From positions 62,001-126,000 of the forward strand of contig NW_022985103.1 of assembly GCF_010015585.1 (NCBI RefSeq): a stretch of 64,000 bases of DNA. The letters are read 5' to 3'. This document shows, piece by piece, positions 3,001 through 12,843 of this stretch. The notes beneath the pieces are model-generated. The model had not been told where the DNA came from, made no database searches, and saw only the letters and a program-made list of their open reading frames with translations. The DNA is from Eremomyces bilateralis CBS 781.70 (taxonomy: Eukaryota; Ascomycota; Dothideomycetes; Eremomycetales; Eremomycetaceae). Within the stretch, counting starts at the first letter, position 1; every line of letters starts with the position of its first letter. A program made the translations under genes and the position numbers.

Positions 3001-4651
3001 GCTCGTGAGTGAACAATTGGGACTCGGCAAGTTCGCCCATGTCGGAGCCTGAAGAATTGCCTGACGATGGAACTTTTGTTAATGACGGTTCATGATAATG
3101 GATGCCAGAGCCCTGGCTGGATGCCTCGTCAGATGGCAGTGATGATTTAGCGGCGAGTGGTTCCGACTGAGAGAGTAGAATCCCTTGACCTTCCGCTACG
3201 TGATCCAAAGACCTTGACGACCAGAGAGGCGCATCAGTATTTGCTGAAGTCACGAGATTGGCAAGCCGCAGTGGTAGGGACTGAGAACTCCCACTATCAG
3301 AAGCAGACCGGCGGCTTTGAAGTTGCCTTCGGGTTCGCCAATCATGGAATGATACAGACTGTGTCAGTTCTGGATCGTCTTCCCAAAAAGAGTCTCCGAC
3401 GGAGGCTATGCCAACGTCGTCAATCTCGCGCTCCAAGATCGTGGGGGAGCCGTTATCGCCGGGAAGAGGCATAGAGCTAACATTCCGCGTTGAAACCGGA
3501 TCATGACCATCGTCATCTGCATCGGCGAATCGGTCGGCATCTTGGGTAATAATCGAATCCCTTAGACTTTCCGAACGATTTTGCCGAATCGTCGGAGAGT
3601 GGCCTGAAATGGAAGCTGTGGGACTGCGGACGGCGGATCGAGAAGTTTGCGGAGACGACGTTCTATGCCGAATTTCTGAACCGGGTAGAGATCCCGAGGT
3701 CGCACTCCCTGAAACAGAACGATTGGCTGACGGGGATGCGACAGACGGTACGGTGGACGTAGTTTGCGTATTGAACAACCTTGAGTCCGCAATCAATGAG
3801 GCAATCACATTTTGGAGTACCACTCGTCTCCGAGGACCAGGTTCTTTTACTTGAGGAGTTGGAGATGACCCGGTAGTAACCCCTTCGATCCCGATATCGT
3901 CGATGTGAAGTCGAAGGCATGCTTCATAGTCATCCTTGATGCTTATCGCGGGAAAACTTTCGTTTGATAGAGGACCAGGATCAAGAAAGCAGTCAATATC
4001 CCGGACGGTCAATTCTAACCTGTCGCCAACGCCCTTTAACCAGCTCGTCAGGAAAATGGGGAGACTGATGCCAGTCCCAGTGCCGAAAGCAAGATCGTCT
4101 TCAGATTCCGAGTCGGAAAGGTGCATCGACTGGGACTCCAAGGCCGCTTCTAATTCTTTCTTCTCGTCTGCCGGTTCCTCAGCTAAGAAGGACTTTGCCA
4201 AATCTTGAGCAGTCGGAAGGCCTTCCTCTTCGCCGTGAGCACTCGACTTAGATGGACTAGGCTGTCCTGTTCCAGCTTGTGCCGCCGGCTTAATGGTGAT
4301 TTTGAGCTCGACACCTCGCGCCTCGACTCGGATGGGTGTCGCATGAAGATCAGTTGGGATGGACACCCGGAGAAGACGTACGGTAGCTTTGGATAGCTCG
4401 AAATTCGGGGGTAGATGGAGAATCGATAGCAATTTCTACCAGACAATGCATCAGCAGTTTTATCTTTCTCCGATGGAGTCTTGGTCCCGTACCTGTGTGC
4501 GCAGCGCGACATCGCGAAGCTCTACGACGTTCTTCCTTCCCCACGCGATGTCCAAGCTGTCCAGGTCAAGTGCGTCGGTGTCGAGCACATCGATATGAGA
4601 TAGGGCATAGCGAAGGACCCGCCGCTGGATGGAATACGGGATGAACGACAT
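1..4651 (-). CDS. atg2: Autophagy-related protein 2 (partial, 5' part)
   Basis: Atg2 is the bridge-like lipid transfer protein that joins the ER to the growing phagophore. The start is the ATG at 4651. Exon 1 (4651-4493, 53 codons) ends RTQ; a 57-nt intron (4492-4436) follows; exon 2 resumes with KLLSILHLPPNFELSKATVR and stays open to the left edge. The N-terminus (LRYALSHIDVLDTDALDLDS, then DIAWGRKNVVEL) is the chorein_N lipid-entry module and matches the Atg2 N-terminus known from Aspergillus. Downstream comes a long Ser/Pro-rich low-complexity stretch, then beta-rich sequence. The C-terminal half, including the CAD-tip and Atg9/Atg18-binding parts, lies outside the window. More introns near the left edge (about 160-80) cannot be excluded, because another frame there also reads well. 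The family call is firm. Confidence 0.95.
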
Positions 4652-5527: not shown

Positions 5528-5539
5528 AAAAACAAAAAA
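5528..5539 (-). terminator. RNA polymerase III terminator of the tRNA gene
   Basis: On the minus strand a run of six T (5539-5534) is followed by G and five more T (5532-5528). It starts 21 nt after the predicted 3' end of the tRNA-Arg gene. A T run of four or more just downstream of a tRNA is the usual Pol III stop signal. Its position supports taking the half after the insert as the true 3' end of the transcript. Confidence 0.8.
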
Positions 5540-5560
5540 GATCTGGCAAGTTTGATATTA

Positions 5561-5691
5561 GACCCAGCTGGGACTCGAACCCCTTTAATGGTTGTTAGTA
5601 TGATTCTTTCTCAATTTCTTGCATTTTTATGACTTACAGAACCTTGCCCTTACTATAGGAGGGGCACGCGCTACCATTGCGCCACAGAGCC
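5561..5691 (-). tRNA. tRNA-Arg(CCU) gene with a 5-nt anticodon-loop intron and a 55-nt spliceosome-like insert in the T arm
   Basis: Read on the minus strand from G1 at 5691. The acceptor is GGCTCTG. The D arm is GCGC-AATGGTA-GCGC. The anticodon stem TGCCC/GGGCA is perfect, with loop CT-CCT-A-[TAGTA]-A (anticodon 5659-5657). The variable region is AGGTT. After the first two T-stem bases comes an insert, 5637-5583 (55 nt), starting GTAAGT, holding TACTAAC and ending AAAG. Joining the flanks gives a perfect T arm, CTGGG-TTCGAGT-CCCAG, then the acceptor 3' strand CTGGGTC. The acceptor has two G-U pairs and one U-U mismatch. Box A (TGGCGCAATGG, 5684-5674) and box B (GGTTCGAGTCC, 5581-5571) match consensus. 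The body resembles yeast tRNA-Arg(CCU), which reads AGG. It is either a functional gene with two introns or a recently interrupted copy. A GT-AG insert in a nuclear tRNA T arm is not something I know from fungi. Confidence 0.8.
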
Positions 5692-10696: not shown

Positions 10697-12843
10697 TCAT
10701 ACTACCGTCTCCTTGCTAGCCGCATCGCTACGCACTTCCTTTGAAACCGGCACGGCAGCCTGGCCCTCCAAATCTTCTACCTTTCCCTTCGGACCCACGG
10801 TTCCAGTAGGCAACATGTTCAAACGATCTTCTGCGTGGTCAAGATCGCGGTAGAAGAAAAAGAATATGACCCCGGCGATGGCAGAAATCACCGCCATAGC
10901 CCCGTAGTTCCACACAAGCAGCGGATCCTCGGATAATGGTATGAACGCTTCGCCAATAGCGGAGCCGATGGCTGACATGAAAAGACTGAAGGCCATGACA
11001 AGAGATCGCATGTTCTTCGGGGCCTTGCTAAAGGCATACTCGTAAGAGGTGATGGAGGCGAAGATCTCGGAGATGGCAATCAGAACGTAAATTCCAGTTT
11101 GTGCCCAAACATTGATGTTTGTCGGTGCACAGCCCTCCCCGGTAGCATCGGTCCCACATTCGGAATCGCGGTAGCTAGTACTGTCAGTTGTGTGAAGTAC
11201 TAGAGGGAGTCAGGAGGAAACTCACATATATACTTGTAGCACGCATGCCCAGATCATCGCCATAGAACCGACCCAGAATCCAGCAGTGATCTTCTTAATC
11301 GGAGTAAAGTTGATTCCAACCTTCCGTAGACCCGGATAGAGGAAGGCGTTGCAGATAGGGATGAAGATAATAAGAGCGAAAGGGTTAAGGTTCGCAATGA
11401 TATCGTTGGGTACGCCGTGTAATGCCATGACAGCGGCTTGGGATGTCAGGTTGTTGTTGATCTGGTTATAGGTGATCCAGTAGAGCGGCATCCACAGGAA
11501 TACGCTGCATGCGGCAAATCCACGAGCAACCTCATCAACCCTAACAAGTCAGTATGAGAAATAAAAAATGTTGTTCAAGATCAACTCACCAAGCATCGTC
11601 AAAAGTGTACCAAGAAGGGCGTCCTTCCATTGGGACACTTGACGGTTTCAGACTGTTCCAGAAGGTACCGTCGTGCATATGCTTGTAGGTTGCCCATGGG
11701 TTCAGATGCCATCGTCCCTTCGTGCCCCTGATCAAGAGTTTGGTGGCGGGTCCCAATACGCTGCCCTCTGGAGGAGTTAATTTGTACATCTTCTTGCAGA
11801 AGAAGAGCACTGGCAGCGTGGTGATAAACATGGCCGTGGGAATGAAAAAAGACAGCCAAAATCCGACATATCTCTCGGCGTAAACCATAGAGATTTGGCC
11901 AACAATGGCACCGATGTTGATGGCGAAGTAGAACCAATGATATACGCTCGACGTCGTAACTGCAGGGTCAACGATGACGCGCTCCCCAGATTTCAGTGTC
12001 TTGACTCTTAATCCCTCAAGAGGGATCTGCTCTGCAATGAGAGGAGAAATATTCGGTTTGAAACCACCGGTCCCGATTCCCATGATGATCACGCCAACAA
12101 TGAAACACCCAAGCGCAGAGTTTGGAGTTGCCATGACAGATGGCGCCGCAGAGGCGGTCAAGATAATATGGCCGACGATAGCCACGAGCGCCGAAATCCA
12201 GATAGTCCGGAAGCGTCCGAGATAGGTATCTGCAACCCAGGCACCGAACAGGGGAACAACGTATACCCAGAACTAATATATGTTAGCGCTTGGCAGTTAG
12301 TTGATGAATTGAATGACATACACTATTGAAAGTCGTGAGGCCGGTCGACGCCCGTTGCCCTAGGCCTAAGGCACCTGGTTGCGCCTGTTCATCGCTAGGA
12401 TTGAGCGCTCGTCCAGTATCTGTCCCTGGATTCGGCTGCTGGATGAAATTGACGAACACCTGGTAATTTATTCAGCGCTTCATTGCTATTGAATCCTCGG
12501 GCGAAGGCATACCTGAACTGTGCCGTAATATGAAAGACGCTCGACAAGCTCGACGAAGGCAACTGTATACACCTTAAAAGGGATACGTTCGGAAACTCGT
12601 CGAAGCGTGCGTAGATCCTCCTCGGTGGGAAGGTCCTTGTCTTGAACGTCGTATTCGCTCTCCTCTGCCACCTTTTCGTCGTACTGTGGAGGAGGCTCGA
12701 TCACATCAGAGCTCGGACGCCTCATTAGATCGCCGTTGCCAATGATGAGACTCGGGTCATGTTTCTCGCCAGCGAACTGATGTCCATTAGCCTAGTGTTT
12801 TCAAGAAATTATTTGGGAGTCGTAAACGTACGGTGTCTGCCAT
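10697..12843 (-). CDS. ptr2: PTR2-type proton/oligopeptide transporter (POT family)
   Basis: Six exons: 12843-12832, 12776-12513, 12459-12322, 12272-11590, 11540-11226, 11174-10697. Introns are 49-55 nt and the phases agree throughout, giving 629 aa. The first exon codes only MADT; starting at the later in-frame ATG (12725) would lose the residues FAGEKHDPSLIIGNGDL and the tiny exon. Family hallmarks are VAFVELVERLSYYGT in helix 1, GVIIMGIGTGGFKPNISPLI, and the POT signature FYFAINIGAIVG. About a dozen hydrophobic segments and short charged ends fit a plasma-membrane symporter that imports di- and tripeptides with protons. The family is usually under nitrogen control; I did not define such sites here. 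Confidence 0.93.

Follow-up and report, generated by a model that had tools for sequence, protein, structure and literature searches.

A tRNA-Arg(CCU) gene in the 64-kb stretch of DNA analysed here (the window), which judged by its genes is most likely fungal, is interrupted in its T arm by a 55-nt insert with a donor, a branch site and an acceptor of the kind found in mRNA introns. The insert fits exactly into the 5′ strand of the T stem and is absent from the one homolog retrieved, itself probably fungal. Read from the sequence, this arrangement suggests that a fungal nuclear tRNA-Arg(CCU) gene gained a spliceosomal intron between tRNA positions 50 and 51 and may be expressed and yield a working tRNA after splicing, a reading to which we give a little less than an even chance (about 0.47). 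The parts of the locus are as follows.

5560..5691, minus strand: tRNA-Arg(CCU) gene, unspliced, with its first base at 5691 and base 73 at 5560 (sequence, Rfam and ARAGORN)
5674..5685, minus strand: box A region, GTGGCGCAATGG (sequence)
5651..5655, minus strand: putative canonical tRNA intron UAGUA after position 37, in a 12-nt loop, boundaries ambiguous by a few bases
5583..5637, minus strand: 55-nt insert, very probably a spliceosomal-type intron, in the 5′ strand of the T stem between tRNA positions 50 and 51, with GTAAGT, TACTAAC and AG
5594..5600, minus strand: branch site TACTAAC, branch A at 5595
5571..5581, minus strand: box B, GGTTCGAGTCC (sequence), intact and directly 3′ of the 55-nt insert
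5534..5539, minus strand: T6 run, Pol III terminator-like, starting after the 20 nt that follow base 73

Inspection of the sequence confirmed that box A and box B are intact and that a T6 run lies downstream, as a preliminary description of this DNA had stated; both box regions were judged against their consensus. The distance from box A to box B is 92 nt with the insert and 37 nt without it, and TFIIIC tolerates spacings in this range. ARAGORN reported no tRNA in the window, either by default or with introns of up to 150 nt allowed, and the Rfam tRNA model gave the unspliced gene 22.6 bits, short of the gathering score of 29, and placed the 55 nt among inserted bases between the anticodon arm and the T loop. 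In its default mode ARAGORN called a tRNA only once the 55-nt insert had been removed, and it named Arg(cct) once 5 nt of the anticodon loop had been taken out as well. When the intron site was fixed and the threshold lowered, ARAGORN did name the unspliced gene Arg(cct), but this call was discarded; its anticodon and T stems were broken, and it stood beside other poor calls at the locus.

With both inserts removed, the gene yields a cloverleaf with a CCU anticodon in which 20 of 21 pairs are standard. The D, anticodon and T stems are Watson–Crick throughout, and the gene carries a U6×U67 mismatch and U73. The ARAGORN call and the cloverleaf support the original assignment to tRNA-Arg(CCU), with the amendment that a second interruption, of 5 nt, had gone unreported and that a CCU anticodon needs its removal. 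In folding predictions for the RNA lacking the 55 nt, the cloverleaf was both the minimum-energy and the centroid structure; the unspliced RNA gave no cloverleaf. Stability alone proves nothing here, since neither RNA folds better than its shuffles (z = 0.87 spliced, z = 0.77 unspliced).

The insert has a GC content of 27%. Its GTAAGT donor at 5637 fits the GTRWGT-like fungal consensus, and the donor, the TACTAAC branch site and the terminal AG are all as first claimed, flush with the break in the tRNA. The acceptor takes the form AAG and not the usual, though not strictly defining, YAG; AAG acceptors are rare in fungi, yet found. The spacing from branch site to acceptor, originally put at about 13 nt, is corrected to 12 nt from the branch A to the last G, which is within the 6–36 nt range for RCTRAY branch sites in PMC5832005. 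A CAG is present 27 nt from the branch A, 15 nt beyond the end of the insert and inside the T stem, and its use as the acceptor would destroy the tRNA.

Chance is a poor source for this set of signals. GTAAGT, TACTAAC and AG occur together at one locus only in the 64-kb window, where the two matches listed have one donor and branch site in common and end at different AGs; the strict motif set had a mean of 0.01 in shuffled sequence, and none of 100 shuffles had two matches. TACTAAC taken singly is no rarity: the window has 6 copies, against 2.46 expected. In none of 200,000 dinucleotide shuffles, none of 200,000 base shuffles and none of 200,000 random 55-mers from the window did the three strict signals occur together and flush with the ends. 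A looser pattern was matched by 23 of 200,000 dinucleotide shuffles, a count inflated because such shuffles preserve both terminal bases and, often, the AG, and by 1 of 200,000 random window 55-mers, which may be the insert itself.

The fit of the insert was examined by a deletion scan from the anticodon stem to the T loop that left 9–12 nt and required a five-pair T stem, with G–U pairs allowed. Two registers passed; they describe a single deletion that leaves AGGTT-CTGGG, and one of them is GT…AG. Removal of the insert does restore a five-pair T stem, as had been proposed, and among the deletions scanned it is the only one to do so. The variable loop then has exactly five bases.

The window also supplied a local standard for intron size. 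Its genes include OTU1, an RRP6-like exonuclease, ATG2, APC1 and CCT-eta (best PDB match 4v81, presumably a yeast structure). Scans for coding introns returned one candidate by codon scores and seven with a looser setting, and a pair in a PTR2 gene was examined further. Two of these neighbouring genes bear on the tRNA locus.

10700-12185, minus strand: PTR2 peptide transporter with two short introns of 45 and 49 nt
4460-4651, minus strand: probable ATG2 N-terminus (Pfam E 5.3e-13; score 48.1 bits, cut-off 50), putative ATG at 4651

The exons flanking the PTR2 introns match successive parts of the PTR2 profile, and the introns have GC contents of 49% (45 nt) and 31% (49 nt). The AT-rich 55-nt insert is near them in size, which agrees with the claim that its length is usual for mRNA introns in this DNA, on a sample of two coding introns. 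Taken on its own, the insert is very probably of spliceosomal type. The putative ATG2 start lies about 0.9 kb downstream of the tRNA gene on the same strand, and the rest of ATG2 may lie below 4460-4651 on the minus strand.

The anticodon loop carries the second interruption. With the 55 nt removed, this loop is 12 nt long (CUCCUAUAGUAA), and CCU can be read only if a 5-nt intron at the canonical position is removed from it. ARAGORN read the 12-nt loop as Tyr(ata), or as Thr(agt) when an intron was allowed; with five bases cut after position 37 the loop becomes CUCCUAA and the call Arg(CCT). When the five-base cut was placed at eight positions, cuts 4–7 gave Arg(cct) and cuts 0–3 gave Thr. The UAGUA sequence offers a possible C32–G(−3) anticodon–intron pair, a type of pair that serves the eukaryotic tRNA-splicing endonuclease. 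It has the 37/38 position of canonical eukaryotic tRNA introns, and at 5 nt it is under the 6–133 nt quoted for them (PMC4090602). It would be either an intron below the quoted size range or a sign of decay. The idea that the long insert belongs to one canonical anticodon-loop intron was rejected, as the GGGCA strand of the anticodon stem and the AGGTT variable loop precede the insert, matching the placement of their counterparts in the homolog described next.

Pattern scans of bacterial and archaeal assemblies for related loci gave no match in the first scan and one in the second; scans of viral contigs gave none, and a plasmid search returned six records, all at E about 6. The single match, L001 (2440-2527; also listed as L031), is a eukaryotic-type tRNA-Arg(CCT) in contig NYXK01000181.1 of an assembly labelled Deltaproteobacteria, which is probably contaminated because it holds a tRNA of eukaryotic type. 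The open frames of the contig include what we take to be HET-like and secreted fungal proteins, and with these protein types and the eukaryote-type tRNA, L001 is probably fungal. A hydrolase gene upstream of the window tRNA was not found in the L001 assembly, in a search that had no positive control. Around 1500-1630 in the same assembly are three tRNA-like sequences of 103–127 nt (L027, L028 and L030) with no ARAGORN call; they could be fungal tRNAs interrupted by introns in the anticodon loop.

L001 has no T-arm insert, and its variable loop, AGGTT, is identical to that of the window gene. It carries a canonical anticodon-loop intron of 16 nt that ends in GTA, as does UAGUA in the window. 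In this comparison with one homolog, the spliced sequences are identical at 54 of 72 positions. Standard pairs number 21 of 21 in L001, against 20 of 21 in the window gene, and at the irregular sites of the latter L001 has C–G at 6–67 and G73. The weakness of the acceptor stem is largely shared, since both genes have the G2·U71 and U4·G69 wobble pairs. At eight pairs both bases differ from one gene to the other; seven of these are paired in both, and the eighth, 6–67, is U–U in the window. Such changes suggest that tRNA pairing was kept over the divergence of the two genes, thin evidence from one homolog that is mute on activity after the insertion. If L001 shows the older state, the insert would be a gain relative to it.

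On the favoured reading, a tRNA gene with a functional spliceosomal intron, Pol III would use the intact boxes A and B and stop at the T6 run. Excision of the 55-nt GT–AG intron would fall to the spliceosome and allow the T arm to form, and the tRNA-splicing endonuclease and ligase would remove the 5-nt intron at 37/38, leaving a tRNA that reads CCU. We infer transcription and spliceosomal removal as well as the order of the splicing steps and the working product. The intron itself may have come from reverse splicing of an excised intron or from an introner-like insertion, and we offer either origin as a guess. That one working tRNA would be made by two unrelated machines, the spliceosome at the T arm and the tRNA-splicing endonuclease at the 5-nt interruption, is a slightly more tentative proposal.

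The chief competing account is that the locus is a tRNA pseudogene: the genome would have several copies of tRNA-Arg(CCU), and this one would have been struck by an introner-like or reverse-spliced insertion and be unused now, or be transcribed without yielding a tRNA. We consider this a real prospect, at appreciably less than an even chance. The kept tRNA body and the flush insert argue for a working tRNA, and they are offset by the AAG acceptor, the U6×U67 mismatch, U73 and the 5-nt anticodon-loop excess in place of an intron of normal size, all of which a pseudogene would explain. Short insertions in eukaryotic D and T arms, moreover, mostly affect a single copy among many synonymous ones and are presumed to mark pseudogenes (PMC4090602). 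For both reasons a working tRNA is put only near even. Against a pseudogene, the gene has no decay apart from pair 6–67, base 73 and the short anticodon excess: its D, anticodon and T stems remain Watson–Crick, boxes A and B are intact with the T6 run after them, and the odd wobble pairs are common to L001. The insert, too, is flush and complete with donor, branch site and AG. The well-kept body is a weak argument, because a recent pseudogene would look alike.

The insert could instead be an intron of a Pol II transcript crossing the tRNA gene, such as a long ATG2 leader or a non-coding RNA, so that its splicing would not serve the tRNA. The position of the ATG2 N-terminus downstream on the same strand leaves room for such a transcript across the locus, Pol II transcripts are where GT–AG introns are usually spliced, and an early mammalian study reportedly found that Pol III transcripts are spliced poorly. 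This account is nevertheless unlikely: it makes the exact restoration of the T stem a mere coincidence, T runs resembling Pol III terminators follow closely downstream, and intron-bearing fungal U3 and U6 genes are known. A further alternative is that the tRNA-splicing endonuclease cuts the insert as an ectopic tRNA intron of the kind known from Cyanidioschyzon and nucleomorphs, and that GT–AG and TACTAAC are present by chance. It has precedents in the excised T-arm introns reported for nucleomorph tRNAs (PMC4090602) and in the many nucleomorph introns that have no defined bulge-helix-bulge (PMC3978253). A search of both registers for that motif (bulges of 2–4 nt, central helix of 3–5 pairs) gave no candidate, and a full set of spliceosomal signals by chance is very unlikely, which makes an endonuclease intron highly improbable. 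We regard an assembly or sequencing artefact with similar scepticism: the locus is represented by a single sequence, but the insert is built as a complete intron, something that a random assembly error is unlikely to produce.

If the favoured reading of a spliced and working tRNA-Arg(CCU) is true, the largest class of Pol III genes would join U3 and U6 as hosts of spliceosomal introns, and the spliceosome would be able to act on a short Pol III pre-tRNA. The locus would also offer a direct test of intron gain where the gene product must fold exactly. Were the gene in addition the main source of the CCU anticodon, decoding of AGG codons would be tied to spliceosome activity. Programs that find tRNA genes expect eukaryotic introns in the anticodon loop, as the intron mode of ARAGORN states, and similar genes may therefore have been overlooked; ARAGORN gave no call in the window, and Rfam scored this gene below its cut-off.

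Among the matches listed from the open-access literature, in the portions available, no spliceosomal intron in a tRNA gene was found, and the intron-bearing tRNA examples met there were of archaeal type or concerned group I introns in general terms. The tRNAscan-SE 2.0 paper describes eukaryotic tRNA genes as limited to one intron (PMC8450103), and a 2017 paper states that, among small structured RNAs, frequent interruption is known only for U3 and U6 (PMC5832005); the available parts of these two papers report no case like the window gene. The gene can nonetheless be set beside several known systems.

Ascomycete rRNA genes carry spliceosomal-type introns, which resemble the insert as mRNA-type introns in a fungal non-coding RNA gene and differ in that the host is a Pol I gene with a large RNA product. 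U6 snRNA sits in the spliceosome and so has a ready route to reverse splicing, which a tRNA does not. The mRNA-type introns of fungal U6 genes (cited in PMC5832005) are like the insert in being spliceosomal introns of a Pol III gene. Introner-like elements of Dothideomycetes (PMC4457414) may give rise to new spliceosomal introns in fungi and could be the source here. Such elements have many near-identical copies per genome; within the 64-kb window the 55-nt sequence has one copy, with no further copy at up to three mismatches. The ectopic tRNA introns of nucleomorphs and Cyanidioschyzon (PMC4090602, PMC3978253) share with the window gene the T-arm position and the presence of more than one intron per tRNA gene. 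They are assigned to the endonuclease or have no known mechanism, whereas the insert has GT–AG ends and a branch site and no bulge-helix-bulge. Canonical eukaryotic tRNA introns (PMC4090602) are matched by UAGUA in the 37/38 position and the possible C32–G(−3) pair but not in length, and the 55-nt insert is of another type and lies elsewhere in the tRNA. In fungal U3 snoRNA genes (PMC5832005), GTRWGT fits 88 of 136 canonical donors and RCTRAC fits 129 of 138 introns, and all but one end in YAG; the insert agrees with the donor and branch-site patterns and departs from the acceptor pattern. The U3 introns average 92 nt, with YAG acceptors and a snoRNA host, against 55 nt, AAG and a tRNA host here, and the two are alike in being GT–AG introns with a GTRWGT donor and an RCTRAC branch site in the gene of a small structured RNA.
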